This document shows, in pieces, positions 6,889-36,118 of a stretch of DNA of 64,000 nucleotides. Made by a program: the position numbers and the translations under genes. The stretch comes from Oidiodendron maius Zn (Eukaryota; Ascomycota; Leotiomycetes; Myxotrichaceae), in assembly GCA_000827325.1 (NCBI GenBank), contig KN832898.1, positions 5,787 to 69,786 of the forward strand, in the 5' to 3' direction. Numbering within the stretch: position 1 is the first letter of the stretch; each line of letters begins with the position of its first letter. The notes below the pieces were generated by a model that saw nothing but the letters and a program-made list of their open reading frames with translations, did no database searches and had not been told where the DNA came from.

Positions 6889-8379
6889 ACTAGATATAGC
6901 TATAATAGGAATATAGAGTCTATTTATAGCTCCTAGTATTAGTAATATAGCAAAGTATAGAAGGCTAGTAGAAGATAATATTTTAATAGTATATATAATA
7001 TAGAAGCTTATATATAACTTAAAACAATATTAGATACTCTAACTACTATAGATCTCTTATATCCTCTAAAAGAGGCAATTATATATTATATTATTAACCT
7101 ATTACTATCTAATCTAGAAGTAAGTCTAGAATTTATATTAAGGAACATTATCCTTATCCTTATTCTCTAGATTATTTATATATAGCTTCTCTCCTTTGAA
7201 GTCTAGCCCTTTATCACTAGCTTAATGCTTTAGTAGCTTAGTATAGTAGCTCTACTTAATAGATCTAGAGGTCTATTAGCCTATAATATCTTAGCTAGAG
7301 AGAGGGATTAGAAGACTTATAGTATAGAAGTAGGATCTTTAGTAGTAGAGGAGAGTCTAGTATATTTAATAGAGCTACTAAGAGTTAATAATAGTCTAAA
7401 GGAGGTTAAGGAAACACTCTATAGTATAAGTACCTACTTAGAGGTTTAATAAAGGTTATATTCAACTATAAAAGTTAGAAGAATAAAGGAGATAGAGTAA
7501 TAGCAACTAATAGCAAGACTTAGAGATGATCTTATAACCTTAAAAGATAAACTATTCCTTTATATATAATATTATATTTATACTCTATTCTTTAATAGAC
7601 ACTTTAGTAGATAGGGTAGTAAACAGGGCTAAAGCTTACTCCTTAGAATAGAAGACAGCTAGTAAAGTATTAGTAGAGAATTAAAGCAAGATTAGACTAG
7701 ACTTACTCTTATAGGTAATAGTAAAGATAATAATACTAATAAGATCAAGTACTATAACTTTAGCTATAGTAGCACAAAGCTTATAACTATTAGTAACTAA
7801 AAGATAGAGTATCTAGAAGCCTATAACTTATCTTATTAAAAACCTAGTTAATATTATTAGCTATAGTTATATATTATAAGAGAGTATATTATATTTCAAG
7901 ATAATATTAAGGAGAAGAGATAAGGTTCTATTATTTACATTCCCTATATACAAGGCTTTTAGCATAGCTAAATACTAAAAAGGAGATACTAACTCTATTC
8001 CTATACTAGGACCCATATTTATATACTAGTATATTAATACTAAGGTTATATACTATTAAATAGATATCCTATAAGACCTTCTCTCTTCTCCCTACTCTTA
8101 TATCCCTTTAGTCTAAAACCCTTCTTACTATTATATATCTCTAATCTCTATTATAGGAGCCTAGGATCCTTTAAACCCCTTATACTCTCTACCTTTAATA
8201 GAGAATTATCTATGTTAGGATATTATAACTACTACTTATAACCCTACTAGGGGAGAAGAGAGTATCTAAGGTTTATATAGAATATCTTCTTTTATCCTTA
8301 AGTAACTTAATTAGTCTCTAGATCTATAAGTCTTTAACTATTCTTGTAAAATCCTCTAGTATTAACTCTACTACTATAA

Positions 8380-8657
8380 TCCTATATTACTATCATGCTT
8401 TTATCCTTAATTTTATAGCCTAAATTAAAGTTAATCTTAGCTAGTCTAAACAGCCTATATTTACTAGCTAGAAGGGCTAGGATATAGTAAGGAAGGTAGT
8501 GATATTTGTTACCTTAAAGGAGGATAATCTATTTGTTATATTAAAGCCTATTCTAGAAAAGGAGAAAGAGAAGGGAGAGGAGAAGAGAAGCAAGAATAAG
8601 GAATAAAAGAAAGAGAAGGTTAAGGAAGGAAAAGTAAAGGAAGAGAAGGATAATAAA

Positions 8658-8704
<47 letters not shown>

Positions 8705-9997
8705 TGATTCTTCTATTAAAGAGATAGCTATTAATATTAGTATCTATTAAAAGCACTATTTAAGCTAATCCTTAACTATAGATATAATTACCTCTACTCT
8801 AGAGAAGTTAGGCTAGACTATCTCTAGTCTAGTAATAAGGATTATAATAGTCTTTAGACTATACTATAGTATAGATAACCTTGCCTTAAGAATAGAAAGG
8901 TTTATACTAGCCTTATAATAGATAACAATAAACCTTTATATTGATAATAAGATAGTTAAAGGTGTCTGCTTTATAGATCAAAAGATCTAGAAGACTACTA
9001 TCTTTTTCTTTAAGGAAGTCTTTAGGACTAGAGCTTAAGGAAGGATCCTAGGCCTTATTATATATATATAGTATACTAAGGCTAAAAGGATAAAGCTTAA
9101 AAGTAGTAAGTAAGTAGTAATACTAGCCTACTAGGAGGATATCCTAGAAGTATTCTAGGACTTTTTTAATAGCTTTAGATACTTCTACTATAGTATATAT
9201 AGTAATATAAGCATCTATACTAGGATCCTTATCTACTAGTATTAATATAGGCTATATATAACCTTTGAGCAGCTATAGGATATAGCTTATAAGAATCCAA
9301 ATAAATATAAGGCCTTTCTAGCTTAGTAGAACTTAAAGATAGAAGTTAGCTAAAGTATAACTATACTAATCTTCTTATACCTTATATATATTCTTAATAT
9401 AGAGAAGGCTAGACTAAGGAATATACTCTAATAGAGCTAGTATATCTATATTTTAGCCTTTAACTTTAGTACTAGTATTCTAGCTTTACTTCTAGATAAT
9501 ATATCTTACCTATAAGTATATTATTCTAGAATAAAGTATTAATACTAATATACTTAAAGGCTAAACTACTTCAGGATTCAAAAAGTTCAGGCTATAGTAC
9601 CCTTTATCTCTAAAGCTTTAAGTAGAGATACCTATACTATCTACTATCTAGCTACTATTAATATCCTTAACTATCTTATAAACGGAATAGTCTTATTAGA
9701 GCTATAGCTTATAGCTAGCTCTAATAGGAATTTACTAAGCTTGCTTAAAGGTATAAGCCTAAGTTATAAGAAAGGTAGAGTTAAAGGTACTAACTCTAAG
9801 ATAGAGGGCTATAGAGACCTAGATAAAGGAGAGATCAAAGGAGTAGTAGTCAGCAAAGAGATAGAGGAGGAGGTAGAGGAGGTAAAGGAGATAAAGGAGG
9901 TAAAGAAAGTAGAGGAGATAAAGGAGATAAAGAAGATAGAGAAGGTAGAGAAGGTAGAGGAAGTAAAGAAAGTAAAGGAAGTAGAGGAGATACCCTA
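8380..9997 (+). pseudogene. Coding-like segment p of copy A, RIP-degraded
   Basis: Plus-strand segment with codon-like texture. It has a Lys/Glu-rich stretch near 8560-8660, an AAT run, a central part of about 900 bases, and a Lys/Glu/Val-rich tail at about 9835-9997 built of GAGGTAAAG-like steps. The part around 9138-9330 is clearly related to 15287-15490 in segment q of the same unit, so the unit carries two diverged relatives. The family was not recognised. The bases are consistent with CAG and CGA codons turned into TAG and TGA/TAA by RIP, and nothing suggests a working gene. Confidence 0.4.
8660..8701. repeat. AAT trinucleotide microsatellite, copy A
   Basis: About 14 uninterrupted AAT/TAA steps. 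The counterpart in copy B is at 23793-23836 and similar in length, so the run predates the duplication. It contains no C or G and would not be touched by RIP. Confidence 0.9.
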
Positions 9998-10681
9998 AAT
10001 AGAGAAGATAAGGGAGGAGAAAGGAGGTGTTATTTTTTAGTGGCTAAAATAATTATCTATCTATCTTTTAATAAAGGCTACCTTAGTTCTTAACTTCAAA
10101 TTTCTTTAAGTATTACTATAGTAAAATTCAATATATATATAAAGATAATATTATATCTATAAGGAGGCTCCTTAAGTTGTTTCTATATTACTTAAGTTAT
10201 CTATATCTATCTAGTATTTTTAGTATTCTACTATACTAAAAATATAAAGTCTTAAGTCATTTATATCTATCTAGTAGTTTTAGTATTCTACTATACTAAA
10301 AATATAGAGTCTTAAGTTATCTATATCTATTAAATAGTTTTAGTATTCTACTATACTAAAAACATAGAGTCTATAACTATCTATTCTATATTCCATTATA
10401 GTAAAAATAGAGACTTAATATACTAGAATACTACTATAAGGATAAGTATAAAGTATATGATTAATTCTTAAACTACTCTAATATTTTTATTTGATTCCTA
10501 TAAGCCTATTCTAATACTAATTATCATTTAGCTTAGCCTAGTCCTAGCCTCTATTTCTTCTTCTAGAGTATATTTATACTTTTTAAGGCAATATTACTAA
10601 GGATATTATCTAGCTATATAGCTGTTATTAGACTACTAATACTTAATACAAGAAAATATATGATTATATATAGAATACTTA

Positions 10682-13600
10682 CTTCTTAGACTTCTTCTTC
10701 TCTATAACCTTTTTCCCCTTGATAGTAGGTAGGTTAGTAGGTAAGGACTTTCTAATCTAGTAGTTAGAGAGATTATCTCCTAAAGAAATAGCCTCTATAA
10801 ATAGACTTGTCTTAACTATAATAACAGATTTGGTTTTAGTAGAAGTATTAGTTACTTCTACTATCTTAATATTACTCTATCTAGTAGATAGCTATAGCTA
10901 CTTCTAGCTACTTAGTTTAATAGAAGTACTAATTAAAGCTATTAGTGACTTAAAGGAAGGGTTAGATAAAAAGAACTTATAAAGTATATTAGCTAGAGAA
11001 GGTTAGTTATAGTGCCTTAATAAAGGAGTATATAGCTAGAAGGGGACTTACTACTAAATCTAATAGATCTAAAGTAGGTCTAACTATTTAAACTCTTAAA
11101 AGACTCTTAGCTAAGAGATCTCTTTCTTCTCTTTAGAGCTACTAGACTAGCCTTTACTATAGTAGCTACTAGCTACAAAGATACTCTATAAACAGATAAT
11201 AGTTAAATAGCTGCTTTATAAAGTATAAATACTAGCTATATAACTACTTTAAGAAATAGGGATAGTCTAGATAGGATAGCTATAAAAGCTAGGCAAACAG
11301 TAAGGCTACCCTATATAGCTAAATAGGCTTAGCTATTTACTTTTAGTTAAGATATTAAGAAGGATTTACTCTTATAGAAGATAGTAGCTATGATTTATAG
11401 TCCTTATAAAGGATTATCCTATATTAAGTTAGCTATTAGCTACTATAGCTACTATTACTTAATGTTAGTAAAGAGGTATAGAACTAGTAATCTAGAGATA
11501 TATAATTCTAGAGTCCTTATATAGTTCTATAATATAAATAGAAAGGGAGGTAAAGCAAGTGATTTTAAAAGCTATAATATAGGCTTAAATATTTTAAAAC
11601 ACTAAGAATAAAGTGTAAAGAGGGGAGGAGATAAGAGGTAGAGAGAGATATAAGTAGGGTAGTTTACTAGTAGTATAGTTTAGGTATATATTATAATAAC
11701 AAATGTATAGTTAACTCTATAATTTAGCTATTAAATAAATTTTCAGTATAAAGCTATATAGAAAGCAGTCTATTCTAGTACTCTAAATTATATATCTATC
11801 TAACCTTTCTAGCTGTCCTAGATATTCCAACCCTTCTAAATACTCTAAACGCTCTAAATATAAGACCTTTCCTATATATCAGATATATTCTAAGTATACT
11901 AGGTATTTTAAGTATTCTAAGCATTCCAAGTATTCTAAGTATTCTAAGCATTCCAAGCATTCTAAGTATTCCAAGTATTCCAAGTATTCTAAGTATTCCA
12001 AGTACTCTAAGTACTCTAAGTATTCTAAACAGTCCAAATAGCCTATATAGTCTAAATAGCCTAAATAGTCCAATTATTCTAGATATTCTATATATTCTAA
12101 ACCCTTTCTATATATTCTATATTCCAGATATACTAAATATACCCTTGCTATTATTTACCTATTATTCTCTAAAGCAAGTATATTATCTATTACTACTAAT
12201 ATCCCAACACTAACTCTTAGCCCTTCTAGTACTTTCTTTTAAGAACTTAAGATTAATAGTATAGATAATATTAAGGTTATAGATACTATTATATAGTTTC
12301 TAGCCTACCCCTTAAAGTAAGAGTCCTACTATACCTACTTAACTATCCCTAGCTAACTACTAGTTTCTAAAGGATAATATACTACTATTCTAATAGTACC
12401 TTTTCTATTAGTCTAGCTAGTATTAAATAGCTTATAATAGAGGGTATAAAGTAGGAAGATCTATAGTAGCTTAAGCTCTATATAAGATAAAGAGGCTATA
12501 AGAAGCACTGTATATATATAGCCTATATCCTTCTAGATATACTAATTATATAATACTTCACTTTCCTTCCTACTAGCTAGAACAAGATTGATAATACTAT
12601 CCTCTTCTCTAATAGTAACTAGTTATAAAGATTCTAGCATAGCCTAATATAATACTAGAACTTGTATACTATAGACTACATTCTAGTTACTACCCTTCTA
12701 TTAGATACTAGCTAGTACTATATTAATTAGCTAGATAAGCAGGCAATAAAGGACTTTACCTCTCTTCTATAGATACTACTTTATATAATTTAGAAGCTAT
12801 AGAGTCTACTAAAGCTAGAGATAATTGACTGCCTTTATAATTATATCTACTAGATACTAGCTCTATATAACCTAGGCTGCTTCCCTCTAGACTAGCTATA
12901 TAGTCTACTAAGTATAGTAGATAAGCTATTTATAGAGTTACTATAGCTATATACTACCTAGATATATATATTTGTATACTATAAGAAGAGGAGCTACTAG
13001 AGCTAATAGTATATCTAGACAGCTAAAGGGGTATAGATACTAAAGATAAGGGTATAGTATAGCTTATCTATACTAATAAGGCTATATATTAGACTAGACC
13101 TACTAAGCCTTTAAGGTCTATATAATATTATTAAAGCTAGCTTTAGTAACTAGCCTCTAATAGTAAGTAAAGCTAAAGGCTTCTCTAGCTATAGCTCTAT
13201 AGTCTATTATATACTCTATAAGGTCCTAGTATTACTTAACTAGCTATCTCCTATCCTTATCCTTATAGAAGAGAATCTTGATCTTTATTATAGTAATCCT
13301 CTAAAGCTATATTTAGAGGTTCTAGTCAGTTATATAGAGTACTAGCTTAAACAAATATATACTATTTAGTATAGGATAGAGAGATATATTATTAATTATA
13401 CTAACTATTTTATACTCTACTAGTAGAGAAGGGTCAAGAAATCTATATACTATCAAGCTCTAGCCTATAATAGAATAGTTAATAGTAGCAAGTTTATTTA
13501 CTACCCTTTATTTAATTTAGTATATTCTAAGAGAGCTATTCTAGAGCTAGTCTTCCTAATAAGGGTAGATAATTAGAGGGAAAGAGAGTGTTTTTTTAGA

Positions 13601-13700
13601 ATATCTATAATAGCCTATATATATTATACCCTATATTACAATACTAGAATTGAGAATAGATAGATAGGCTTAAAGATATTAGTATATAGAAAGAGGATAC
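10682..13700 (-). pseudogene. Reverse-strand coding-like segment of copy A, RIP-degraded
   Basis: Read on the minus strand this stretch has codon-like texture and ends near 10682 with a Lys/Ser-rich tail (GKKVIEKKKSKK then a stop), which resembles a nuclear-localisation-type C-terminus. It includes the 9-bp array described separately. Copy B has the same segment at about 25683-28760. No domain could be recognised. The orientation is an inference from texture and the tail; the segment is not functional as it stands. Confidence 0.3.
11885..12120. repeat. 9-bp tandem array, copy A
   Basis: About 20 imperfect repeats of the 9-mer AGTATTCTA with variants such as AGTATTCCA and AGCATTCCA. Because the period is a multiple of three, it reads on the minus strand as a Leu-Glu-Tyr tripeptide repeat. 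Copy B has it at 26940-27130 with the C-containing variants largely changed to T, as expected of stronger RIP there. Confidence 0.85.
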
Positions 13701-14067
13701 AGTATAGTAGTATTATAGAATAAGCCTAGAATCATAGAGCTAGAAAGGGTTACTAGAGATTAAGTATATCTAAAGACTTACTATAGATTGAAATTACTAG
13801 TACTTAAGTCTTTAATCAAATAATCCTCCTTATAATAGAAGGGAATCAACTTGAAGTATTATAGAATATAATATACTTTACTTACTTATACTTCTATTTT
13901 CAGAATATTAATCGATTAAAAGACTCTTTTTAGCATTTATTTATACTAAATTCTAGTATTATATATCACTTTAGTAGCTATATATAATTATTTATTACTA
14001 TATAATAACTATAAGTTTACTATATCTATATAATAAACTAAACCCTTTATACTATAGCTAACCTTAT

Positions 14068-14160
14068 CCTATTACAATATTACTCTTCTATTACAATATT
14101 ACTCTTCCTTTATAATATTACTCTTACTTTATAATATTACTCTTCTTCTATTATAACGTT
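14068..14160. repeat. Short tandem array of TATTACTCTTC-type units, copy A
   Basis: Five to six imperfect copies of a unit of about 19-24 bases built around ATAATATTACTCTT. The matching stretch in copy B is about 29125-29215. It lies just upstream of segment q. Confidence 0.65.
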
Positions 14161-14229
14161 ATATAGTATTATATAGCTACTATATTATTACTCTCCTATT
14201 CTCTAAAGCAGAATTAATAGTCTATAACT

Positions 14230-16090
14230 CCTACTACAATGTCTAAAAGGCTCTTAATAAGCTCTACTAGTAATACTAAAACAGCTATAGTATATAGGAT
14301 AATAGACCCTCCTCTTTTTATCTAACTAACTATCCTCTAGATCTATCAAGAACTAGCTATACTAGTTATAAATCTAGATAAGGACTCTACTATAATTATC
14401 CTTTATAACTATTATAGTTTTATATTAGATCTAATAAAGTAGCTTAAAGTAGACCTAACCTTAGTCCTATAGCTAAAGTTCTATAATAAGCCTAATATAC
14501 TAGATATAGTAAAGAAAGGTAATACTAGCCTTAATAATATACTAAATCTTAATACTAGAACTAGTAAAGCTTATTCTATCTCTATCCTAGAGAATAAGGA
14601 TATACAGATAAAGGACTAAGATACAACTAGTATACTAGATACAAAGGAGGCTAGCATTAGCTCTAGGTTCCTAATCAATATAATTATCTTTACTCTAGCC
14701 TTTGTTTCTATTAATACTATTAAGTATATTAATACTAAAGCTTCTGCTAGTACTATTACCCCTACCAAGGCCACTATTCTAGCCAAGACTAAGGCTACTA
14801 TCCCTATCAAGACTAGAGCTCTAGCTAAAGTCATTATCTCTATCTAGACTAAAGCTATTATCCCTGTCTAGGCTAAAGCTATTGTCTTTATTAAAACTAA
14901 AGCCTTAGCCAAAGCTATTATCCCAGCCTAGGCCAAAGCTACTATCTCTACTAGTACAGCTGCCTCTATCTCCTATAGCCTACCTTACCAAATCCTTATA
15001 ATTATAATAGCTCTATAGCTAGATATAACTACAAAGGACCTGGTATAGGCAATAGACATATTTACCCAGGATATTATAGACATGTCTTTTAATATATACA
15101 TAGATAACAAGGAGGTCCCTAATGTATATCTTACTAATATAGAGGTTAAGCTAATTATTAAGTTCTTCTTTAAAGATATCTTTAGTCTAGCTACTAGACT
15201 AAGGGTATAGAGCCTATTCAACTATATTATAGTAGTAGAAGAGTAAGGTAAAGAGCTACTAAACAGCAAGCAAGTATTAGCTCTAGCCTATCAAGAGGAT
15301 ATCCTACTAGACTTCTATACTTTCTTTAATAACTTTAAGTACTTCTTCTAAGATATATATAGTAGTACAAGTATCTATATATAGACCCTTATCTATTAGT
15401 ATTAGTATAAGCTATATAAGACTTTTGACCAGCTCTAGGATATAGCCTATAATACTCTAGAGGTATATAAGGCCTTCCTAGCTTAGCAGGACTTAAAGAT
15501 AGATATAGACCAAAGTACTAAAACCCTAATCCTATTATACCTCTACTATACTCTTAGTCTAGAACAAGCTAGGCTATAGAATATACTTTAGTATAGCTAG
15601 AGTATCTACCTTCTAGCCTATATATTTAGATCTAGTATCCTACTCCTAGTCCTAAACAGTACTACTAATATATGAGTATATTTACTCTAGATCTATAGCT
15701 ATTACTAATATACTTAGAGATTAACCTGCTTTAGTATTTAGAAAGTCATAGCTATTATACTATTTACTACTAAAGCCTTTGGTAATAATACCTATACTAT
15801 CTATAAACTTACTTATAATAATATTCTCTAGTATTTAGTAGATAGTATAGACCTATTAACCCCCTTAGTAGTAGTATCTAGTATAAGAAGCTTAAGCTTA
15901 TTAAGCCTACTTAAGGCCCTAAGTCTAGATAAGGAGGAAGATAGTAAGAAAACACTACTAGAGATTAAGGAGGAGATAGCTACTAAGGAAAAGAAAGAGG
16001 ATATAAGCTTAGAAGATAATAAGGAGCCTATATATAGCAATAGAAGTAATAATAGCAATGATCTAATATTTAATAATAGTAAACCTCTAA
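14230..16090 (+). pseudogene. Coding-like segment q of copy A, related to segment p
   Basis: Second plus-strand coding-like segment. Near its start is a Thr/Ala/Lys/Ile-rich stretch (about 14690-14970) made of repeats around ACTAAAGCTATTATC. The part at 15287-15850 follows segment p (9138-9700) closely: both contain GACTT...TTTAATAACTTTA, CTATCTA(C/T)TAGTATTA and AAGGCCTTTCTAGCTTAG-like stretches in the same order. The C-terminal part is Ser/Glu/Lys-rich. The family is unknown; gag-like or host-like origins are both possible and I could not decide. Confidence 0.4.
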
Positions 16091-16374
16091 AGTAAAGACT
16101 AAAGAGTAGGCTAGTATATATATATCAAATGCCTCTATTTAATATATATATAAATATATTACTAGACAGAATAAAAATATAAAGAGATTAATATATTCTC
16201 TTATATACTATATTTTAGGAGGAATATAAGAGACTAGAGGCAGCTAAATATAGCAAATGATAGAGTAGGGCTAATAGAGTATTTTATATATTAAGAAAAA
16301 GGCTAGATATAATAATGCCTAGTGTAGCCTATATAGAATCCTATAGATAATTAATATATAAAGGATTTAAATTA

Positions 16375-17330
16375 GATTATCCTACTTTTAGTCCTAGTAG
16401 CTATATATAAATACTAGCTTTCTATATACTACTATACCTAAAAGCCAAGGCTTTAAATTAGACTAACCCCCCTTTAGTCCTAGTAGCTATATACAAATGC
16501 TAGCTTTCTATATATTACTATACCTAAAAGATAATAAATAAGTTAGCTAAAGATAGTTATATTCTAATCTAGAAGCAAGGAGATTCAGGTTTTTAGAAGT
16601 CTATAACTATAGTCTATAAGCTTATATACTAGCTTCAATTATCCTAACTTTAATCCTAGTAGCTACTTATAAATACTAATTTTTGGTATACTACTATACC
16701 TAAAGGGTAAGGCTTTAACCCTCCCTTTTATCCTAGTAACTATATATAAATACTAGCTTTACATATACTATTATATCTAAAGAGTAAGGATATAAATCAG
16801 ACTACCCTCCCTTTAATCCTAGTAGCTATATACAAATGCTAGCTTTCTATATACTACTATACCTAAAAGGTAGTAAATAATAGGCCTAAAGGTAGTTATA
16901 TTCTAACCTAGAAGCAAGGAGATTTAGGTTTTTTAGAGCCTATAGCTATAGTCTATATATATATAAACTAGCCTAACTTATCCTACCTTTAATCCTAGTA
17001 GTTACTTACAAATACTAGTTTTCTATATAATATTAAGTATAAATACCCATTTCTATATAATACTAATACTTAAAAAAGCAGTAAATAAATTGACTAAAGA
17101 TAACTATAGAACCTATATAAAAGCAGAAAGATTTGGTCTATAGGCTTATAAACTAGCCTCTAGCTTTAGTTCTAGTAGCTACTTATAAATACCTGTTTTC
17201 TATATAATACTATACCTAAAGAACTATAAATAAATTAGCTGAAGATAGTTATATACTACCAGGATACAGAAAGACTTAAGCTTTTAGGGCTTATAATAAT
17301 AGTCTATAGGTTTTTAAACCAGCTTGAATT
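16375..17330. repeat. Tandem array of roughly 100-bp units, copy A
   Basis: At least eight imperfect units share the core TCCTAGTAGCTA-N-TATAAATACTAGCTTT followed by CTATATACTACTATACCTAAA. Spacing varies from about 85 to 130 bases, and some units carry an extra piece with GATAGTTATATTCTAATCTAGAAG. The same array is in copy B at about 31430-32340, so it was part of the unit before duplication. It follows segment q and looks non-coding. Confidence 0.75.
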
Positions 17331-18589
17331 CTTCTCCTAGCTCTATCCTAACTATATACCAAAATTTAGAAAATTTTACCACAGGTTTATAGGCTAATAT
17401 TCATAATTTGTAACTTGGTATTACTACTAGTACTTTACATATCTTTACTTGTAATTAGATAATCTCAAGAGATAAACTATAAGTAGTATACTATATGTAA
17501 ATAAAACTATAAATGTAAATAACTAACTATAGTATACCTTTATTATAAGAGAGAAGATCTAATATATATTCTTCCTTCTATTAGTAGCCCTCCTTACTAG
17601 CTTAGCTATAGCAATTCAGATAGAGTACTACCTATAGTATAGATATTAAAGCCTCTATATATCTAACACTTAATATCTATCTAATCTATCTCAACTATAA
17701 TAATACCTAAATACCTTCTAATAAGTATACTATTATAGAAGCATCTTTTTAACTACCTACTACTACTATTATCAAAGGGTCTACTAGCTACAACTAGCTA
17801 CAAAAGACAAGCGCTACTATAGCTCTTATATAAGAGTTTATATAACAATATAGTTACCTATCTAAAGCACCTCTATAAGAAGTATAGTATATATAGAGAT
17901 AACTAGTATCTTATTAACTACCCCTTTGGCTTTAAGGATATATAGGTAAAGCGGAACTAGCTAGTACTAGAAGATACTCTAGATATAAAGAGTCTATTTA
18001 TATATATAGACTTCCTCTAGTAGCTTTATACTAGTAGTATAAGGATAAAGATTAGACTCTTCTATATATAGATAAAGATATAGGTAGGGGGGAAGAGGAA
18101 CGACTAGAAGATAGATATCTAGTATATATAGATATATATACTATAGAAACTTAATAATAAAGGTATTAAGATAATTATCTAGGACTCCAATTAGATAATG
18201 AATATGAAGAGGTAGTATCTACTATAAAACATTAGTATATAGAGGATACTAATTGATCTGGCCTAGTTAAGGTATATAGTCAAGGAAGTCTAGATTAGTA
18301 ATAGTAGAAACAATAGCTATAGTTAATACATTAAGCTTATATTCAACTAGATTAAGTTAGTCCTCTAGGGCTACAGAAAAGCAGCTATTCTAGTCTTAGT
18401 AGAGATAGTATAGAATAGCTTTATCTAACTTATAATATCTAAGGCTATCTCTAAGGTAGCTAGTATAGCCAAGTTAATCTAGCTGCTTACTAACTAGCTA
18501 TAGCCAAGTAAGAGAGCCTAGGCAGCAAGCTAGCAGTAGAGGGATAGATAGGTAGCCAATATAGATATCAAGAGCAAGACTAAAAAGAA

Positions 18590-18960
18590 AGCAGTTAAGG
18601 AGAAGGTTAGTATAAACAAGGAGATAGAGGTAGAGGATAAAGAGATATAAGGTAATAAGATAGAGGTAGAGGTAGAGGTAAAGGATAAGGAGATATAGAG
18701 TAAAATAATAGAGGTGGAAATAAAGGATAAAGAGGTATAGAGTAAAGAGATAGAGGAAGTAGAGGTAGGGGATAAAGAGATAGAGGTAGGGGATAAGGAG
18801 ATAGAGATAGAGAATAAAGAGATATAGGGTAGAGAGATAAAGATAGAGGATAAAGAGGCTTAAAGTAAAAAGATAGGTAATAAAGAGATAGCTAATAAGG
18901 AGATAGTATATAAGGAGATAGAGGAGGAGGAAGGGGAGTAAGTTAGAGGGGCTAGAGAGA
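18590..18960 (+). repeat. Lys/Glu/Asp-rich low-complexity segment, copy A
   Basis: Repeats of GATAAAGAGATAGAGGTA-like steps read on the plus strand as Asp-Lys-Glu-Ile-Glu-Val runs, the typical pattern of a charged coiled or disordered protein segment. Upstream (about 17800-18560) the plus strand has coding-like texture and retains some CG and GC-rich words, so this may be the tail of a third decayed gene. The copy B counterpart is 33650-34010. Confidence 0.55.
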
Positions 18961-19566
18961 AGGGAAAAGGCTAAGAGGAAGTAGCGTTATTACTATAGGA
19001 TTATACTATATAATAAATCTTTATATCTAAACAATTAATCAAGGAACCTCTTTCTTTAGTTATACCTCTCTTATATAGAATAAAATATCTAGTCTATCCT
19101 ATCTATATATTCTCTTCTTTTCCTTTCTATTATCTAGATAGTAATAAAGGGCATTCTCTTAATATAGCTATATACTAAAGGCTAGAGGAGTACAGGAAGG
19201 GAGAGGAAGGGATAGCTTAATATTACTAAAGGGCTACCCTTACCTTTATACTAATAATACCTAGGCTCTTCTCCTTATAGATAGCCTATCACCCCTTTAG
19301 AGCCAAGTAAGGGATAGAAGAAGGATGATATAGCTAGAGGAATCTATATAAGAGGGAGTATATCTAGGATATTACTCAATTAATATAGCAAAAGCTAATA
19401 TCAATTAACCTTTAACTTAGTAATTACCTTGGTAAAATCGCTTAACTAAGACTAGAGCCAAGTAAGTCAAAAAATTTTCTCTCTATTAAGAGGCTTCCCC
19501 CTTCCTTCCTTCCTCCCTTCCTCTCTTCCTCCCTCCTCCTTCCTCTATCCAAAGATCTTGATCCTG

Positions 19567-23793: not shown

Positions 23794-23837
<44 letters not shown>

Positions 23838-25115
23838 CTTTACTAAAGAGGTAGCTATTAGTATTAGTATCTATTAGAAATACTACTTAAACTAATATTT
23901 AGCTATAGATATAACTACTTTTATTCTAAAGAAGATATACTAGACTACTTTTAGTCTAGTAATAAGGATTATAATAGCCTTTAGACTATACTATAGTATA
24001 GATAACCTTATCTCAAGAATAGAAAGGTTTATATAGGCTTTATAATAGATAATAATAAACCTCTATATTAATAATAAGATAGTTAAAGGTATCTACTTTA
24101 TAAATTAAGAGATCTAGAAGGCTATTATTTTCTTCTTTAAGGAGGTCTTTAGAACTAGAGTTTAAAGGAAGATCCTAAGCCTTATTATATATATATAGTA
24201 TACTAAAGCTAAAGGGATAGAGTTTAAGAGTAGTAAATAAGTAGCTATACTAGCCTATTAAAAGGATATTCTAGAAGTATTCTAGGACTTTTTTAATAGC
24301 TTTAGATATTTCTATTATAGTATATATAGTAATATAAGTATTTATATCTAGATTCTTATTTACTAGTATTAGTATCAGCTATATAGAACCTTTAAGTAGC
24401 TCTAGAATATAGCCTATAAGAATCTAAATAAATATAAGGCCTTTCTAGCTTAATAGAACCTAAAAATAGAAGTTAGCTAAAGTATAACTATACTAATCTT
24501 TTTATACTTTACTTATACCCTTAATATAAAGAAGACTAGATTAAGGAATATACTCTAATAAAGCTAGTATATCTATATTTTAGTCTATAACTTTAGTACT
24601 AGTATCCTAACTCTATTTCTAGATAATATATCTTATCTATAAGTATACTATTCTAGAATAGAGTATTAATATTAATATTCTTAAAGGCTAAACTACTTTA
24701 AGATTTAAAAAGTTCTAGCTATAGTATCTTTTACCTCTAAAGCTTTAGATAAAGATACCTATACTATCTACTATCTAGCTACTATTAATATCCTTAACTA
24801 TCTTATAGATAGATTAGTCTTACTAGAGCTATAGTTTATAGCTAGCTTTAATAGGAATTTATTAAGCTTACTTAAAGGTATAAGTCTAAGTTATAAAAAG
24901 GATAGAGTTAAAGGTATTAACTTTAAAATAAAGGGATATAGAGACCTAGATAGAGAAGGGATTAAAGGAATAGTAATTAATAAAGAGATAGAGGAGGAGG
25001 TAGAGAAAGTAGAGGAGATAAAGAAGATAAAGGAGATAAAGGAGGTAAAGGAGGTAAAGAAGGTAAAGAAGATAGAAAAGATAAGAGAGGTAAAGAAGGA
25101 GATATCCTTTTTTAG
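23430..25115 (+). pseudogene. Coding-like segment p of copy B, RIP-degraded
   Basis: Counterpart of 8380-9997 in copy A, with the same Lys/Glu-rich stretch, AAT run (23793-23836), central part and Lys/Glu/Val tail (about 24985-25110). It is more AT-rich than the copy A version. Family not recognised, not functional. Confidence 0.4.
23793..23836. repeat. AAT trinucleotide microsatellite, copy B
   Basis: About 14 AAT steps, at the same place in the unit as 8660-8701 in copy A. Confidence 0.9.
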
Positions 25116-25682
25116 TAGCTAAATAATTATCTCTTTATCTTTAAATAAAGGTTATCTTTATTTTTAACTTTAAATTTCTTAAGTATTACTATAGTATAAT
25201 TTAATATATATATAAAGATACTATAATATCTAAAAGAAAGCTCTTTAAATTGTTTCTATATAACTTAAGTTATCTATATCTATCTAGTGTTTTTAGTATT
25301 CTATTATACTAAAAATATAGAGTTTATAACTACCTTTTAGTATTCTATTATATTAAAAATATAAAGTTAGTAACTATCTATTTAGTATTCTATTATAGTG
25401 AAAATAGAGACTTAATATACTAGAATACTATAACTAGAATAAATAAAAGGTATATAATTAATTCTTAAACTACTCTAATATTTTTATTTGATTTCTATAA
25501 GTCTATTCTAATACTAATTGTTATTTAGCTTAGTTTAGTCCTAGCCTTTATTTCTTCTTCTAAAGTATATTTATACTTTCTAAAATAATATTATTTAGGA
25601 TATTATCTAGTTATATAGCTATTATTAGACTACTAATACTTAATATAAGAAAATATATAATTATAGGTAAGATACTTACTTC

Positions 25683-28600
25683 TTAGACTTCTTCTTCTTT
25701 ATAACCTTTTTCCCTTTAATAGTACTATTTAGTGCTTTCTAGATAATAGATAGATCTATAGGTAAGGGTTTCTTAATCTAGTAAATAGAGAGATTATCTC
25801 CTAAAGGAGTAGCCTCTATAAATAGGCTTATTCTAACTATAGTAGCTAATATAGTCTTAGTTAGTATATTAGCTTTAATACTACTCTATTTTATAGATAG
25901 ATATAGTTGCTTTTAGCTACTTGTTTTAATAGAAGTATTAACTAGAGCTATAAATAACTTAAAGAAAGGGTTAAATAAAAAGAATTTATAGAGTATATTA
26001 GCTAAAGGGAAGTTAGTAATAGTACTTTAGTAAAGTAATATATAGTTAGGAGAGAACTTACTACTAAATCTAATAGATCTAGAGTAAGTCTAACTATCTA
26101 AGCTTTTAATAGACTTCTAGCTAAAGGATCTCTTTCTTTTCTTTAGTACTACTAGACTAGCTTTAGCTATAGCTATTATTACTATTCTACTAGATATAAT
26201 TACTAGCTATAAAGATACTCTATAAGTAGATAATAGCTAAGTAGCTACTTTATAAGGTATAGATACTAGCTATATAGCTACTCTAGAAAGTAAAGTTAGT
26301 CTAGATATAATAGCTATAAAAGCTAGACAAATAGTAAGACTACTTTATATAGCTAAATAGATTTAGCTATTTACTTTTAGTCAAGATATTTAGAGAGACT
26401 TACCCTTATAAAAGATAATAGATATAATTTATAGTCCTTATATAAGATTATTCTATATTAAGTTAGCTATTAATTACTATAGCTACTATTACTTGATATT
26501 AGTAAAGGAGTATAGAACTAGTAGTCTAGAGATATATAATCCTAAAGTCCTTATATAGCTCTATAATATAAGTAGGAAGAGAGATAAGGTAGGTGATTTT
26601 AAATACTATAATATAGGTTTAGATATTTTGAAGTATTAAAGATAAGATATAAAGAGAGGAAGAGATAGAAAATAGAGAGAGATATAAGTAAAGTACTTTA
26701 CTATAGTAAAGTTTAGGTATATATTATAATAATAAAAGTATAGTTAGCTCTATAATTTAGCTATTAAATAAATTTTTAGTATAAAGCTATATAGAAAGTA
26801 GTCTATTCTAATACTCTAAATTATATATTTATCTAACTTTTCTAGCTATTCTAGATATTCTAACCTTTCTAAATATACTAAATACTCTAAATATAAGATA
26901 TTCTTATATATCTAATATATTCTAGATATACTAGCTAACTTAAGTATTCTAAGTATTCTAAGTACTTTAAGTACTTTAAGTATTCTAAGTACTTTAAGTA
27001 CTCTAAATACTTTAAGTACTTTAAATACTTTAAATACTCTAAATACTCTAAGTACTCTAAGTATTCCAAGTATTCTAAATAGTCTAAATAACCTATATAG
27101 TCTAAAGAGTCTAAATAGTCCAATTGTTCTAGACTTTATATATATTTAAAACTATTTCTAAATATTCTATATTCTAGATATACTAAATACTCCCTTACTA
27201 CTATCTATCTATTATCTTCTAAGGCAAGTATACTATCTACTACTATTAATATCCTAATACTAACTTATAGCCCTTTTAGTGCCTCTTTTTAAGAACTTAA
27301 GATTAATAGTATAGATAATATAAAGGTTATAAATACTATTATATAGTTCTTAGCTTACTCTTTAGAGTAAAAGTCCTACTATATCTATCTAGCTATCTCT
27401 AGCTAATTGCTAGTTCCTAAAGGATAATATATTATTATCCTAATAGTACCTTTCTTATTAGTCTAGCTAATATTAAATAGCTTATAATAGAGGGTATAAA
27501 GTAGAAAGACCTATAGTAACTTAGATTCTGTGTAAGATAGAGGGGCTATAAGAAGTACTATATATATATAGCCTATATCCTACTAGATATACTAATTATA
27601 TAATACTTTATCTCCCTTTTTACTAGCTAGAATAAGGTTAATAGTACTATCCCCTTCTCTAATAAAGACTAGTTATAAAGGTTCTAGTATAGTCTAATAT
27701 AATACTAGAACTTATATACTATAGACTATATTCTAGTTACTACTCTTCTATTAGATATTAACTAGTACTATATTGATTAGCTAGATAAGTAAGTAATAAA
27801 GGACTTTATACCCTTTCTATAGATACTACTCTATATAATTTAAAAGCTATAGAGCCTACTAAAGCTAGAGACAATTGATTACCTTTATAATTATATCTAC
27901 TAGATACTAGCTTTATATAATCTAGACTACTTCTCTTTAGGCTAGCTATATAGTCTATTAAGTATAGTAGATAAGCTATTTATAGGGCTATTATAGCTAT
28001 ATATTATCTAGATATATATATTTATATATTATAAAAAGGGAAACTACTAGAACTAGTAGTATATCTAGATAGCTAAAAGAATATAAGTACTAAAGATAAA
28101 GGTATAATATAGCCTATCTATACTAATAAAGCTATATATTAGACTAGATCTACTAAACCCTTAAAGCCTATATAATATTATTAAAGCTAGCTTTAATAGC
28201 TAGCCTCTAATAGTAAGTAAGACTAAAGGCCTTTTTAGCTATAACTCTATAGCCTATTATATACTCTATAAGGTCCTAGTATTATTTAACTAGCTATCTC
28301 CTATCTTTATCTTTATAGAAGAGAATCTTAATCTTTACTATAGTAATCCTCTAGAGCTATATTTAGAGGTTTTAGTTAGTTATATAGAGTACTAGCTTAA
28401 ATAAATGTATACTATTTAGTATAGAATAGAAGAGTATATTATTAATTATACTAATTATTTTATACTTTACTAGTAGAGAAGAGTTAAGAAATCTATATAC
28501 TATTAGACTCTAGCCTATAATAGAATAGTTAATAGCAATAAGTTTATTTACTACCTCTTACTTAACTTAGTATATTCTAAGGAGACTATTCTAGAGCTAG

Positions 28601-28760
28601 TCTTCCTAATAAAAGTAAATAACTAGAAGGAAAGGAAGTATTTTTTTAGAATATCTATAATAGTCTATATATATTATACTCTATATTATAATACTAGAAT
28701 TAAGAATAGATAGATAGGCTTAAAGATATTAGTATATAGAAGGAGGATATAGTATAATAG
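25683..28760 (-). pseudogene. Reverse-strand coding-like segment of copy B, RIP-degraded
   Basis: Counterpart of 10682-13700 in copy A, including the Lys-rich C-terminal tail near 25683 and the 9-bp array. No domain recognised. Confidence 0.3.
26940..27130. repeat. 9-bp tandem array, copy B
   Basis: Imperfect AGTATTCTA / AGTACTTTA 9-mers, reading as Leu-Glu-Tyr and Leu-Lys-Tyr on the minus strand. The Glu-to-Lys changes correspond to G-to-A substitutions on that strand, as RIP would make. Confidence 0.8.
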
Positions 28761-29289
28761 TATTATAGAGTAAGCCTAGAATTATAAAGCTAGAAAGGGT
28801 TACTAGAGATTAAGTATATCTAGAGACCTACTATAGATTAAAATTACTAGTATTTAAGTCCTTAATCAAATAATCCTCCCTATAATAAAGAGAAATTAAC
28901 TTAGAGTATTATAGAATATAATATACTTTATTTGCTTATATTTCTATTTTTAGAATATTAATCGGCTAGAAGACTCTTTTTAGTATTTATTTATACTAAA
29001 TTCTAGTATTATATATTACTTTAATAGCTATATATAATTATTTATTACTATATAGTAACTATAAGTTTACTATATCTATATAATAAACTAAACCCTTTAT
29101 ACTATAGCTAACCTTATTCTATTATAATATTACTCTTTTATTATAATATTACCTTTCCTTTATAATATTATTTTTACTTTATAATATTACTTTTCTTTTA
29201 TTATAATATTATATAGTATTATATAGCTATTATATTATTACCTTTCTATTCTCTAAGATAGAATTAATAGTCTATAACTCCTACTATAA

Positions 29290-31140
29290 TATCTAAAAGG
29301 CTTCTAATAAGCCTTACTAGTAATACTAAGATAGCTATAGTATATAGAATAGTAGACTCTCTTCTCTCTATTTAGTTAATTATTCTCTAGATCTATTAAG
29401 AGCTAGCTATACTAGTTATAAATCTAGATAAAGACTCTACTACAATTATCCTTTATAACTATTATAGTTTTATATTAGATCTAGTAAAGTAGCTTAAAGT
29501 AGACCTAACTCTAGTCCTATAGCTAAAGTTCTATAATAAGTCTAGTATACTAAATATAATAAAGAAAGGTAATACTAGTCTTAATAATATATTAAATCTT
29601 AGTACTAGAACTAGTAAGGCTTATTCTATCTCTATTCTAGAGAATAAAAATATATAGATAAAAGACTAAAGTATAACTAGTATACTAGATATAGAGGAGA
29701 CTAATACTAACCCTAGGTTCCTAATCAATATAATTATCTCTACTCTAGTCTTTATTCTTATTAATACTATTAGATATATTAATACTAAAGCTTCTACTAG
29801 TACTATTACCTTTATTAAAACTATTACTCTAGCTAAGACTAAGGCTACTATCTCTATTAAGACTAAAGCTCTAGCTAAAGTTATTATCTCTATTTAGACT
29901 AAAGCTATTATCCCTATCTAGACTAAAGCTACTATCTCTATTAAGACTAAAGCTCTAGCTAAAGCTATTATTCTAGCCTAGACTAAAGCTACTATCTTTA
30001 TTAGTATAACTGCCTCTACCTCCTATAGCCTACTTTACTAAGTCCTTATAATTATAATAGCTTTATAGCTAGATATAACTATAGAGAATCTAGTATAAAT
30101 AATAGATATATTTATCTAGGATATTATAGATATATCCCTTAATATATATATAGATAACAAGAAGGTTCCTAATATATACCTTACTAATATAGAGATCAAG
30201 CTAATTACTAAGTTCTTCTTTAAAGATATCTTTAGTCTAACTACTAGACTAAAAATATAGAGCCTATTCAACTATATTATAGTAGTAGAAGAGTAAGGTA
30301 AAGAACTACTAAGCAGTAAGCAGATATTAGCTCTAGTCTATTAAAAGAGTATTTTACTAGACTTCTATACCTTTTTTAATAACTTTAGATATTTTTTCTA
30401 AGATATATATAGTAGTATAAGTATCTATATATAGACCCTTATCTATTAGTATTAGTATAAGCTATATAAGACTTTTAACTAGCTTTAGGATATAGCTTAT
30501 AATACTCTAGAGGTATATAAAGCCTTCCTAGCTTAATAAGACTTAAAGATAAATATAGGCTAAAGTACTAAAACTCTAATTCTATTATACTTCTATTATA
30601 CTCTTAGTCTAGAATAAGCTAGGCTATAGAATATACTTTAGTATAACTAAAGCATCTACTTTCTAGTCTATATATTTAGGCCTAGTATCCTACTTTTAGT
30701 CCTAAATAGTATTACTAATATATAAGTATATTTACTCTAGATCTATAGCTATTACTAATATACTTAAAGATTAATCTACTTTAGTATTTAGAAGGTTATA
30801 GCTATTATACTATTTACTATTAAAGCTTTTAGTAATAATACCTATATTATCTATAAGCTTGCTTATAATAATATCCTCTAGTATTTAGTAGATAGTATAG
30901 ACCTACTAACCTCTTTAGTAGTAGTATCTAGTATAAGAAGCTTAAGCTTATTAAGCCTACTTAAGACCCTAAGCCTAAGCAAGAAGAAAGATAGTAAGGA
31001 GATACTACTAGAGATTAAGGAAGAGACAACTATTAAAGAAAGGGAAGAGAATATAAGCTTAGAGGATAATAAAGAGCCTATATATAGTAATAAAAGCAAT
31101 AATAGTAATAATCTAATATTTAATAATAGTAAACCTTTAA
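29290..31140 (+). pseudogene. Coding-like segment q of copy B, RIP-degraded
   Basis: Counterpart of 14230-16090 in copy A, with the Thr/Ala/Lys/Ile-rich repeat at about 29750-30010 and the region shared with segment p at about 30330-30900. Family not recognised, not functional. Confidence 0.4.
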
Positions 31141-31429
31141 AATAAGGACTAAAGAGTAAGCTAGTATATATATATTAAATACCTCTATTTAATATATATA
31201 TAAATATATTACTAGATAGAATAAAAATATAAAGAGATTAATATATTCTCTTATATACTATATTTTAGAAGGAATATAAGAGACTAAAGGTAGCTAGATA
31301 TAATAAGTAATAAAGTAAAGCTAATAGAATATTTTATATATTAAAAAGGGGGCTAGATATAATAACGCTTAGTATAGTCTATATAGAATCCTATAGATAA
31401 TTAATATATAGAGGATTTAAATTAGATTA

Positions 31430-32340
31430 TTCTACTTTTAGTCCTAGTAGCTATATACAAATACTAGCTTTCTATATACTACTACCTAAAAGCTAAGGCT
31501 TTAAATTAGACTAACCTCCCTTTAGTTCTAGTAGCTATATATAAATGCTAGCTTTCTATATATTACTATATCTAAAAAGTAATAAATAAGTTAGCTAGAG
31601 ATAGTTATATTCTAATCTAGAAGTAAGGAGATTTAGGTTTTTAAAAGCCTATAACTATAGTCTATAGGCTTATATACTAGCTTTAATTATCCTAACTTTA
31701 ATCCTAGTAGCTACTTATAAATACTAATTTTTAGTATACTACTATATCTAAAGGGCAAGACTTTAACCCTCTCTTTTATTCTAGTAACTATATATAAAGA
31801 CTAGCTTTATATATACTATTATATCTAAAGAGCAAGGATATAAATCAGACTACTCTCTCTTTAATCCTAGTAACTATATATAAATACTAGCTTTCTATAT
31901 ACTACTATACCTAAAAGATAGTAAATGATAGGCTTAAAGGTAGTTATATTCTAATCTAGAAGCAAGAAGATTTAGATTTTTTAGAGTCTATAGCTATAGT
32001 CTATATATATATAAACTAGCCTAACTTATCCTACCTTTAATTCTAGTAGTTACTTATAAATACTAGTTTTCTATATAATACTAAGTATAAATACCTATTT
32101 CTATATAATATTAATATTTAAAAAAGCAGTAAATAAATTGATTAAGAATAGCTATAAAACCTATATAAAAGCAGAAAGATTTAGTCTATAGGTTTATAAA
32201 CTAGCCTCTAGCTTTAGTTCTAGTAACTACTTATAAATATCTATTTTCTATATAATACTATATTTAAAGGGCTATAAATAAATTAGCTAAAGATAGTTAT
32301 ATACTACTAGAATATAGAAAGACTTAAGCTTTTAGAGCCT
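31430..32340. repeat. Tandem array of roughly 100-bp units, copy B
   Basis: Same units and order as 16375-17330 in copy A, with the core TCCTAGTAGCTA...TATAAATACTAGCTTT. Confidence 0.7.
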
Positions 32341-33649
32341 ATAATAACAGTCTATAGGTTTTTAAACTAGCTTAAATTCTTCTTTTAGCTTTATTCTAGC
32401 TATATATTAAAATTTAGAAAATTTTACTATAGATTTATAGACTAATATTCATGATTTATAACTTAGTATTACTACTAGTACTTTATATATCTTTGCTTAT
32501 AATTAGATAATCTTAAAGAGTAAACTATAAACAGTATACTATATATAAATAAAACTATAAATATAAACAATTAGCTATAGTATACCTTTATTATAAGAGA
32601 GGAAATCTAATATATATTCTTCTTTCTATTAGTAGCCCTTTTTACTAGCTTAGCTATAGTAATTTAGATAGAGTACTATCTATAGTATAGATATTAAAGC
32701 CTTTATATATCTAATACTTAATATCTATCTAATCTACCTTAACTATAATAATACCTAAATGCCTTCTAGTAAGTATACTATTATAGAAGTATCTCTCTAA
32801 CTACTTACTACTACTATTATCAAAGGGCTTACTAGCTATAACTAGCTATAAAAGATAAGTACTACTATAACTCTTATATAAGAGTTTATATAATAATATA
32901 GTTATCTATCTAAAGTATCTCTATAAGAAGTATAGTATATATAGAGATAACTAGTATCTTATTAACTACCTCTTTAGCTTTAAGGATATATAAGTAAAGT
33001 AGAACTAGCTAATACTAGAAGATACTCTAGATATAAAGGGTCTATTTATATATATAGACTTCCTCTAGTAGCTCTATACTAGTAGTATAAGGATAAAGAT
33101 TAGACTCTTTTATATATAGATAAAGATATAAATAAGAGGGAAAGAGGATAACTAGAAGATAGATATCTAGTATATATAGGTATATATACTATAGAAACTT
33201 AATAATAAAAGTATTAAGATAATTATCTAGAACTCTAACTAGATAATAAATATAAAGGAATAGTATCTACTATAGAGTATTAGTATATAGAAGATACTAA
33301 TTAATCTAGTCTAATTAAAGTATATAGTTAAAGAAGTCTAGATTAGTAATAGTAGGAATAATAGCTATAATTGATATATTAAGCTTATATTTAACTAGAT
33401 TAAGTTAGTCCTCTAAAGCTATAGAAGAGTAGCTATTCTAGCTTTAGTAGAGATAGTATAGAATAGCTTTATCTAACTTATAATATTTAAGGCTATCTTT
33501 AAAGCAGCTAGTATAGCTAAATTAATCTAGCTATTTACTAACTAACTATAACTAAGTAAGAGAGTCTAGATAGTAAGCTAGTAGTAAAGGGATAGATAGA
33601 TAGCTAATATAGATATTAAGAGTAAGACTAAGGAGAAAGCAGTTAAAAA

Positions 33650-34010
33650 GAAAGTTAGTATAGATAAGGAGATAAAAGTAAAGAATAAAGAAATATAAGA
33701 TAATAAGATAAAGGTAGAGATAGAGAATAAGGAAATATAAAGTAAAACAGTAAAGATAGAGATAAAGGATAAAGAAGTATAAAGTAAAGAGATAGAAGAA
33801 ATAGAGATAAAGGATAAAGAGATAGAGGTAAAGGATAAAAAGATAAAGATAAAGAATAAAGAGATATAAAATAAAGAGATAAAAGTAAAGGATAAAAAGG
33901 TCTAAAGTAAAAAGATAAATAATAAGGAAATAGCTAATAAGAAGATAGTATATAAAAAAACAAAGAAAAAGGAAAGGGAGTAAGTTAGAGAAGCTAGAAA
34001 GAAAAGAAAA
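33650..34010 (+). repeat. Lys/Glu-rich low-complexity segment, copy B
   Basis: Counterpart of 18590-18960. The Glu/Val/Gly steps of copy A are shifted towards Lys/Ile by G-to-A changes. Confidence 0.5.
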
Positions 34011-35186
34011 GGCTAAGAGAAAGTAGTATTATTATTATAGGATTATACTATATAATAAATCTTTATATCTAAACAATTAATTAAGGAACCTCCTTTCCTA
34101 GTTATACCTCTTTTATATAGAATAGAATATCTAATCTATCCTATCTATATATTCTTTTCTTTTCTTTTCTATTATCTAGATAGTAATAGAATAAATCCTC
34201 TTAATATAGCTATATACTAAAAGCTAGAGAAGTATAAAGTAAAAGAGAAAGGGATAGCTTTATACTATTAAAGGGTTACCTTTACCTTTATACTAATAAT
34301 ATAAGGGCTATTCTACTTATAGATAGCCTATTACTCCTTTAGAGCTAAATAAAAGATAAGAGGTAAATAATACTACTAAAGGAATCTAAATAAAAGAAAG
34401 TATATCTAGATATTGCTTAAAAATATAATAAGAGCTAATACTAATTACCTCTAGTTTAATAATCACTTTAGTAAAATCGCTTAATTAAGACTAAAACCAA
34501 GTAAGTTAAGCAAATCAAAAAATTTTCTCTTTACTAAAAGGCTTCTTCTTTTCTCTTTCTTTCTTCCTTCTTCCTTTTTCCTTTATCTAAAAAACTTAAG
34601 CTAGCTCTATTTAAGTTTCTATCTATCTCTCTCTTTTAATATATCTATATTAATTACAATTAACTACTTGCTTTCTAGAATACTTTATATAGCTATATTT
34701 ACCTCTATAGCCTTTAAGATAGCTAGGCTTCTTCTATCTATTAATAAGATCTTTCTCTATATAAACAAGGTCCTCCTTAATACTAATAAAATCTTCCTAT
34801 ATACTAATGAAATCCTCCTATATACTAGTAAGCTCCTTCTAGATATAGACTATATTATCCTAGATATTAGTAATACTCTATAGAAGAGCTAGAGATAACT
34901 ACTAATAATATAGGGATAGTTTAGCTTGATTAATAGATAGTTTATTAGTAGCTAAAGTCTATAATATTATTAGAAGAGTAGTTAGTATAAGAGAGCTAGG
35001 ATAGACTACTAGAGAAGTTAGAATAAGGTCTAATATATAATATATTAATATCTTAAAGATAGAAATATACTTAATACTTCTTTTATATATACTATAATAG
35101 TCTAACTCTTATATTTCTATTAATCTCCTCTTTAAACACTTTAATAATCCCCTTGATTATACTCCCTTTAAAAGCAGTAGACTTAA

Positions 35187-35400
35187 TATTACTAGATAGA
35201 GAGAGATATATAATACCTCTAATAGATTAAGGAATAAAAGAAGGAGTTAGAGTAGAAAGAGTTCTAGAGAAGAGGTAGATTTCTATATCAAGCTTTATAT
35301 AGAGATAGAATCTAAAAATCGTCTACTTTACTATCTATACCTTTTCTAGTCTCTTCTAGTTCTAGTATAAATATAGACTCTATAACCTTATACTTTAACA
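35187..35400. other. Stretch of about 214 bp present only in copy B
   Basis: Copy A passes directly from AGCAATAGACTTAAG to TTAGTCTAAAGC (about 20190). In copy B the matching words AGCAGTAGACTTAA and AGTTTTAAAGC are separated by about 214 bases that include ATCGTCTACTTTACTATC. It is either an insertion in B or a deletion in A. No target-site duplication or inverted ends were evident. Confidence 0.6.
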
Positions 35401-36118
35401 AATAGTTTTAAAGCTATATATATTCTAATAATAGTATATAAAGATTATAATAAACCCAGCTAGTATATATATTGATTTTAGTATAGCTATTATATAGAAA
35501 CCTAGCTAGTATAGATATATTACTTTCTATATAGCTATATATAGAAAGCTATATAACCTAATAGTATAGCTTATACTTAATTTAGTAAATTACCTAACTA
35601 GTCTCTTATATATAAGAGGCTCTACTTTTATCCTCTCTTTCTATCCTTCTCTCTATAACTTATTCTCCTAGTTATATTAGCTAATAATTAAATATACCTT
35701 TATATCTAGTACTATATACCCCTTTTATAGATTATAATCCCCTATTCTACTTAAGCTATTATAGAATAAAGACCTATTAAATATCCTACTATCCTCTATC
35801 TAGTAAGACTCTCTATTTATTCTCTCTCTCTTTCTTTTTCTTTCTTTTTCTTTTAGGCTTATTTATATTTTATCTATATTCTATATTTAGATAATAATTT
35901 AGAATATTAATTTAAACTAATTTAATTTAATTAATTAATTTTAATTGAAAGAAAAAGAGAGCCTTTAATAAATAGAAGAACCTTTCTCTAACCTCTTTAT
36001 CCCTTAGATCCTAACTAATTATATACTATAATACTAACTTGGCTTAATATCTATATACCTTTAAAACCCTTTAAAATTCCTAAGATCCTTTAATCCCTAA
36101 GTTAAGCTCTATCTATAG

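Follow-up and report, generated by a model that had tools for sequence, protein, structure and literature searches.

An interior tandem duplication in a multi-copy gene block of Oidiodendron maius, inactivated by repeat-induced point mutation, with an almost unmutated sister copy on another scaffold

What kind of event placed two 14-15-kb units head to tail in AT-rich DNA of the fungus Oidiodendron maius Zn: the tandem insertion of a mobile element with defined ends, or the local duplication of a multi-gene stretch that was then hit by repeat-induced point mutation (RIP)? Both had been proposed in a sequence-only reading of the window, that is, the whole stretch of 64,000 nucleotides analyzed here (C29:5787-69786, in a 45.9-Mb genome of 58 scaffolds). 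The present analysis favors, at a probability of roughly 85%, a multi-copy block of which an interior segment was duplicated in tandem and whose copies were later mutated independently by RIP, at a time when a sister copy on scaffold C50 was absent or exempt.

In a blastn comparison of the window with itself, one off-diagonal alignment was dominant (6889-20190 with 21991-35186, 85.7% across 13.4 kb), and MAFFT gave 87.3% identity between the two units over 13,752 aligned columns, a similarity far above chance expectation. Transitions made up 1586 of the 1753 mismatches in the MAFFT alignment. GC content stood at 0.287 in unit A and 0.242 in unit B, compared with 0.47 where the right part of the window bears genes; both units had extreme RIP indices.

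6889..21990, + strand: unit A, 15,102 bp, delimited by self-comparison and MAFFT
21991..36118, + strand: unit B, 14,128 bp; homology to C50 and C14 stops at about 36121
21981..21994, + strand: A/B junction, containing ACTA

The 20-mer reported to start both units, at 6889 and 21991, has exactly two copies genome-wide, and the claim of head-to-tail units without a spacer was borne out, with 21990 and 21991 directly adjoining in a junction that contains no N and reads CTATCTATAG followed at once by ACTAGATATAG. The claimed common end sequence stood in part: the 10-mer CTATCTATAG is shared by both units, but TCTATCTATAG occurs at 5141 and 36108 and not at 21980. Likewise, the tandem is not exact as had been stated: the units align at 86-87%, and A is diverged over its final 2.8 kb (19,150-21,990), which includes about 1.1 kb that is not in B. 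A related sequence on scaffold C5 runs on as ...TATAGACTAACTAAC, so that the ACTA at the junction may be a 4-bp microhomology.

Sister copies were located by searching both halves of unit A against the genome, which gave a full-length copy on C50, a second, truncated one at C14 455 to ~8943, and short pieces elsewhere. C50 is a scaffold of 29,340 bp, GC-rich over most of its length, with an N run at 13441-16782. Window 1-10252 matches C50 27161-16955 in one unbroken alignment (10,252 bp) that passes straight across 6889, and unit B matches C50 20273-16783 and 12858-4948. On the right, C14 451-9793 follows C50 13426-4078, remaining colinear across the "end" of the unit, and C14 10660-14075 follows C50 3939-524. 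That the unit ends lie in the interior of colinear sister copies points to an enclosing block of at least 29 kb, of which B repeats the segment from ~20273 to ~4930 of C50, with C50 as its apparent unmutated reference copy. Judged from the same alignments, the unit does not appear to be a transposon with two defined ends.

1..6888, + strand: RIP-mutated left portion of the enclosing block, colinear with C50 27161-20274 and occurring once in the window
10311..11429, + strand: stretch 68% like scaffold C12, which has there a 228-codon open reading frame (ORF) without a Pfam match; falls in the C50 N run
36122..38200, no strand assigned: AT-rich flank F, without C50 homology; includes 561 N (36377-36937) and in its right part shows 80% similarity to C49:533-1449

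Comparison with C50 gave the direction of the mutations. Over 10,379 columns, window 1-10500 differed from C50 by 2759 transitions, 2749 of them from C50 C/G to window T/A and 10 in reverse, and by 19 transversions, 16 of which fall within 10001-10500, where 60-bp repeats weaken the alignment. The 1432 transitions in C14 8900-14200 (4572 columns) were all from C50 C/G to T/A, with 0 transversions, and B 27610-36118 showed 2664 transitions (2663 in the RIP direction, 1 reverse) and 3 transversions, while 2157 RIP-direction changes were counted in A 12570-21990. Transversions relative to C50 amounted to 3 each in window 1-10000, A 12600-19000, B 27635-36118 and C14 455-8940, and to 0 in C14 10661-14075; B and C14 were separated by 4 in 8484 columns. 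Outside the diverged stretches described below, C50 and the mutated copies thus appear to differ by almost nothing but RIP.

The mutational spectrum was summed over five stretches (window 1-6888, A 12600-19000, B 27635-36118, C14 1000-8940 and C14 10661-14075), chosen so as to avoid diverged DNA and the left margin of the C14 copy, where mutation is lighter (119 of 189 in the first bin), with one ancestral site entering once per mutated copy. With C50 as the ancestor, 3617/3826 CpA (95%), 3862/4122 CpG (94%), 1524/5550 CpC (27%) and 788/4771 CpT (17%) cytosines were mutated. A preference for CpA is typical of RIP; here CpA and CpG cytosines were struck to a near-equal extent, about 94%. Since the second cytosine of a CpG dyad comes to lie in CpA once the first has mutated, the number of dyads still intact (14 of 2061) is the safer figure. 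In AT-rich DNA with no aligned C50 counterpart, the observed/expected ratios of CA and CG were 0.02 and 0.00 (flank F) and 0.04 and 0.00 (C14 14076-16058), and the end of scaffold C5, of mixed composition, showed no comparable loss (0.29 and 0.63). PF00145 matches on C15 and C7 look RID-like and DIM-2-like, as assigned by eye and without a tree from a motif characteristic of these genes; two other PF00145 loci leave room for a second, CpG-directed enzyme.

The order of duplication and RIP was examined through the co-hit coefficient phi across A 12596-19100 and its counterparts in B and C14 (6.5 kb), on the logic that copying after RIP predicts shared mutations at the unsaturated CpC and CpT sites. 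At these sites phi was 0.25/0.18 (CpC/CpT) for A-B, 0.20/0.23 for A-C14 and 0.29/0.17 for B-C14, and A and B were discordant at 311 of 1106 CpC and 179 of 884 CpT sites; at CpG the values were 0.16, 0.13 and 0.15 in the same order of pairs. Because A and B share no more CpC/CpT mutations than unlinked copies do, the duplication came first, and for these 6.5 kb RIP struck A, B and C14 independently after it. This order, together with breakpoints that lie inside a larger colinear block, supports the duplication-then-RIP alternative of the sequence-only reading.

In the favored account, a block of several genes, no shorter than 29 kb, existed in several copies, and the one on C29 had its interior segment duplicated head to tail; template switching or end joining, helped by a microhomology of some 4 bp, is the probable mechanism. 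RIP then acted on the copies, independently in the 6.5 kb compared, reaching ~94% of CpA/CpG cytosines and introducing many stops into each window ORF checked, and short stretches may have been swapped with a diverged relative. C50 would have been outside the nucleus at the time of RIP, or exempt from it; most likely it arrived through outcrossing with a strain carrying a single unmutated copy.

Several observations weigh against this account. Of the 1537 ancestral CpA/CpG cytosines in window 1-6888, which is not repeated within the window, 1424 are mutated (88-95% in each kb); C14 8944-14075, leaving aside its insert, stands at 93-100% per bin. Both stretches are as heavily mutated as the remainder, and the sole near-identical counterpart found for them is the unmutated C50. 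The search for a partner used the 1190- and 1087-codon ORFs as protein and window 1-1162 as DNA, gives lower bounds, and did not take in window 4049-6888 as DNA; a partner may have been lost, left unassembled or gone unseen, or RIP may have extended, undiminished, across more than 6 kb. Leakage of RIP into single-copy DNA is reported in PMC9453070, so leakage could account for the mutated left part. C50, for its part, has no chromosomal placement and may be contamination from a relative. A and B also stop at the same homologous position within ~4 bp, despite tails of different lineages, which fits a simple tandem duplication only if the block was already truncated there; either it was cut off at this position before the duplication or the position is a recurrently breaking point. 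The 61 reverse-direction changes and 102 transversions between A 12570-21990 and C50 arise because the diverged tail is included. Lastly, phi at CpA was higher for A-B (0.22) than for A-C14 (0.09) or B-C14 (0.07), in a context that is near-saturated and leaves few unhit sites.

Further alternatives concern C50. In C50 a T or A stands opposite a CpA/CpG cytosine retained in a copy at only 3 of 427 copy-sites, so that C50 was elsewhere or exempt during RIP, or a partner went unseen, or RIP leaked widely. An unlikely but arguable reading takes the block for an undescribed type of fungal element, mobile or extrachromosomal, whose two gene families have no known domains. Its unmutated form would stay beyond RIP while its chromosomal copies are destroyed, and RIP in this fungus, in contrast to textbook RIP, would clear CpG like CpA. 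The idea that C50 escaped RIP as extrachromosomal or protected DNA and acts as a continuing source of RIP-mutated copies seems improbable; it draws on the near-absence of RIP from C50 and of anything but RIP between C50 and the copies outside the diverged stretches, and on the scaffold being small, unplaced and largely GC-rich. It is opposed by a dispersed repeat of ~320 bp at C50 28498-28819, which has at least dozens of matches in the genome (most of 55 match rows, with 40 of 170 candidates scored), mostly at 73-88% identity, and suggests ordinary chromosomal surroundings; by viral contigs, which yielded 0 relatives for three queries (the 1087-codon ORF not among them); and by outcrossing being the cheaper explanation. 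Repeats of any kind are expected near scaffold ends, and an exact fourfold TTAGGG was found nowhere in the assembly, which neither supports nor contradicts a subtelomeric placement.

There is a slim chance that the tandem is an assembly artefact, as draft scaffolds carry N runs and AT-rich repeats are hard to assemble, but the junction is free of N and the units differ in 13% of aligned columns. Slimmer still is the prospect that the 14-15-kb unit is a mobile element with defined ends, of which A and B are two tandem insertions. The shared stopping point of the two units and the multi-copy state of the enclosing block would agree with it, and a search for other full-length copies at unrelated sites did find the block in C50, C14 and the window, but with different limits in each. 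Neither C50 nor C14 has the same two ends set in different flanks: 6889 is no end in C50, where homology runs on unbroken, and C50 and C14 remain colinear across ~36118, so that neither of them ends there. The left breakpoint moreover lies at most 30 bp from the 351-codon ORF, no transposase-like domain was found in the seven C50 ORFs scanned, and no target-site duplication was seen by eye at 6889/36118. Duplication after RIP, by copying of an already mutated unit, deserves next to no credence in spite of the adjacency and heavy mutation of A and B and their higher CpA phi, given, over the 6.5 kb compared, hundreds of discordant sites and no greater sharing between them at unsaturated CpC/CpT than with unlinked C14.

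RIP does not account for every difference within the units. Their diverged stretches, with many transversions and indels, make A and B mosaics in which a second, diverged lineage takes part.

19150..21990, + strand: diverged tail of A, with 79 transversion positions between 19.0 and 20.7 kb, the final few being in part an effect of where the alignment stops
23219..24814, + strand: diverged stretch in B, with 34 transversions relative to C50 and both sides transversion-free

The ~1.1 kb of the A tail that is absent from B includes a 0.7-kb minisatellite-like array (window 20670-21381) of 86-87-bp and related units. A departs from C50 at ~10.0-10.5 kb, where the 60-bp repeats make the alignment less safe, and in A 9.9-12.4 kb it differs from B by ~8-13 transversions per 500 bp, C50 being an N run past 10.5 kb. 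A single long diverged stretch in B, reaching to 27.4 kb, was considered and dropped, as B matches C50 again from ~24.99 kb.

Which genes did the block carry? Measured stop to stop, and with shorter overlapping ORFs in other frames set aside, C50 has six large ORFs of 1190, 432, 444, 394, 351 and 1087 codons, which make up two paralogous families and one singleton (432-codon). Family X comprises the 444-, 394- and 351-codon ORFs; family Y unites the ORFs of 1190 and 1087 codons with one of 808 codons on C1, and further members or relics of the two families occur on C1, C5 and C54. The C1 relative (C1:5744386-5746794) is open, shares 43% identity with the 1190-codon ORF and lies in the interior of a large scaffold, and the small scaffold C54 (11.9 kb) has a broken distant relative of the same ORF (30%). 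In the window, every ORF checked contains many stops.

818..4048, - strand: family Y 1087-codon ORF, RIP-destroyed, 46% identity, 101 stops
5810..6862, - strand: family X 351-codon counterpart, RIP-destroyed, 39 stops in 351 codons; position taken from the colinear C50 20300-21352
8322..9503, + strand: family X 394-codon counterpart, copy A, start by colinearity and end approximate (small indel), 25 stops in 394 codons; matched core 8835-9491 with 17 stops
23962..24618, + strand: family X 394-codon type, copy B, matched core only, 21 stops
14344..15669, + strand: family X 444-codon counterpart, copy A, 57% identity, 19 stops
29397..30719, + strand: family X 444-codon type, copy B, 49% identity, 28 stops
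17643..18938, + strand: 432-codon counterpart, copy A, 50% identity, 39 stops
32691..33977, + strand: 432-codon counterpart, copy B, 39% identity, 42 stops

The C50 ORFs had no convincing match in Pfam, NCBIfam or PHROGs, nor in PDB by sequence and profile (best E 0.26). Matches rejected were one in NCBIfam (E 0.00046, 19.5 bits against a cut-off of 75), Pfam CDC45 (E 0.0027, 16.5 bits against 34) and several in PHROGs (E 0.0035-0.068). The majority of these lie where the ORFs of 394 and 444 codons are acidic or repetitive; one of the PHROGs matches, a short one (E 0.013), is in the 1087-codon ORF. A likeness of the 432-codon ORF to Ulp1/adenain, from H, D, Q and C residues picked out by eye, was considered and set aside, as no search supports it. 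Ribosomal DNA was looked for in window 1-40000, where no Rfam match reached the gathering score. The block is compatible with a selfish element as well as with a host gene cluster; the duplication has been inactivated by RIP, and self-movement of the block is putative.

In C14, the RIP-mutated copy of the 1190-codon ORF contains a largely unmutated GC-rich insertion (9794-10660), which is probably younger than RIP; it has by eye a tRNA-like stretch and might be a short interspersed element, and ARAGORN, run over most of the insert, reported no tRNA. To the right of the AT-rich block, window 39000-64000 is gene-bearing DNA of normal GC content, where three of the ten ORFs scanned have Pfam matches (DUF3645, APH and protein kinase).

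Among giant transposons, Starships have a DUF3435 captain at one end. The block resembles them in being large, multi-gene and present at several sites of a genome that has DUF3435 genes, but differs in lacking shared element ends and any DUF3435 match on C50 or C14; 22 match rows were obtained genome-wide, none of them on these two scaffolds, although the C50 N run could conceal one. A match of this captain type lies at C29:240366-241944, at most 300 bp from the far end of the 242-kb scaffold.

Literature searches returned no publication recognized as dealing with this block. PMC6710886 describes amplification followed by RIP mutation for the DNA methyltransferase gene dim2 of Zymoseptoria tritici and for histone H3 in other fungi, and offers three hypotheses for the single intact histone H3 gene among RIP-affected copies. 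The present case resembles those in that a gene-bearing sequence was amplified and its copies ruined by RIP, with one copy intact as for H3; it differs in that the amplified unit spans at least 29 kb and several genes, contains an internal head-to-tail duplication and has an intact twin that over long stretches is almost purely RIP-different. Joint CpA and CpG signatures are reported in PMC4352252 for <10% of transposable element copies in B. graminis, and PMC4188875 cites a suggestion that S. sclerotiorum transposons are mutated at CpA and CpG together. Common to these reports and the present data are C-to-T transitions in repeats, CpA targeting and a RID-like gene; in contrast to them, CpG was struck here as completely as CpA, in copies otherwise almost free of mutation. 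Joint CpA/CpG signatures are thus already known, and it is their completeness and the exact ancestor that are unusual here.

The gene families of the block carry no label in the libraries searched. Outside the diverged stretches, C50 is an almost exact ancestor of three independently mutated copies, which amounts to a natural RIP experiment in which mutated and spared sites can be counted without reconstruction. The CpG counts challenge the view that places CpG beyond RIP, and with an intact twin beside its ruined sisters, the escape of a repeat from RIP becomes testable.

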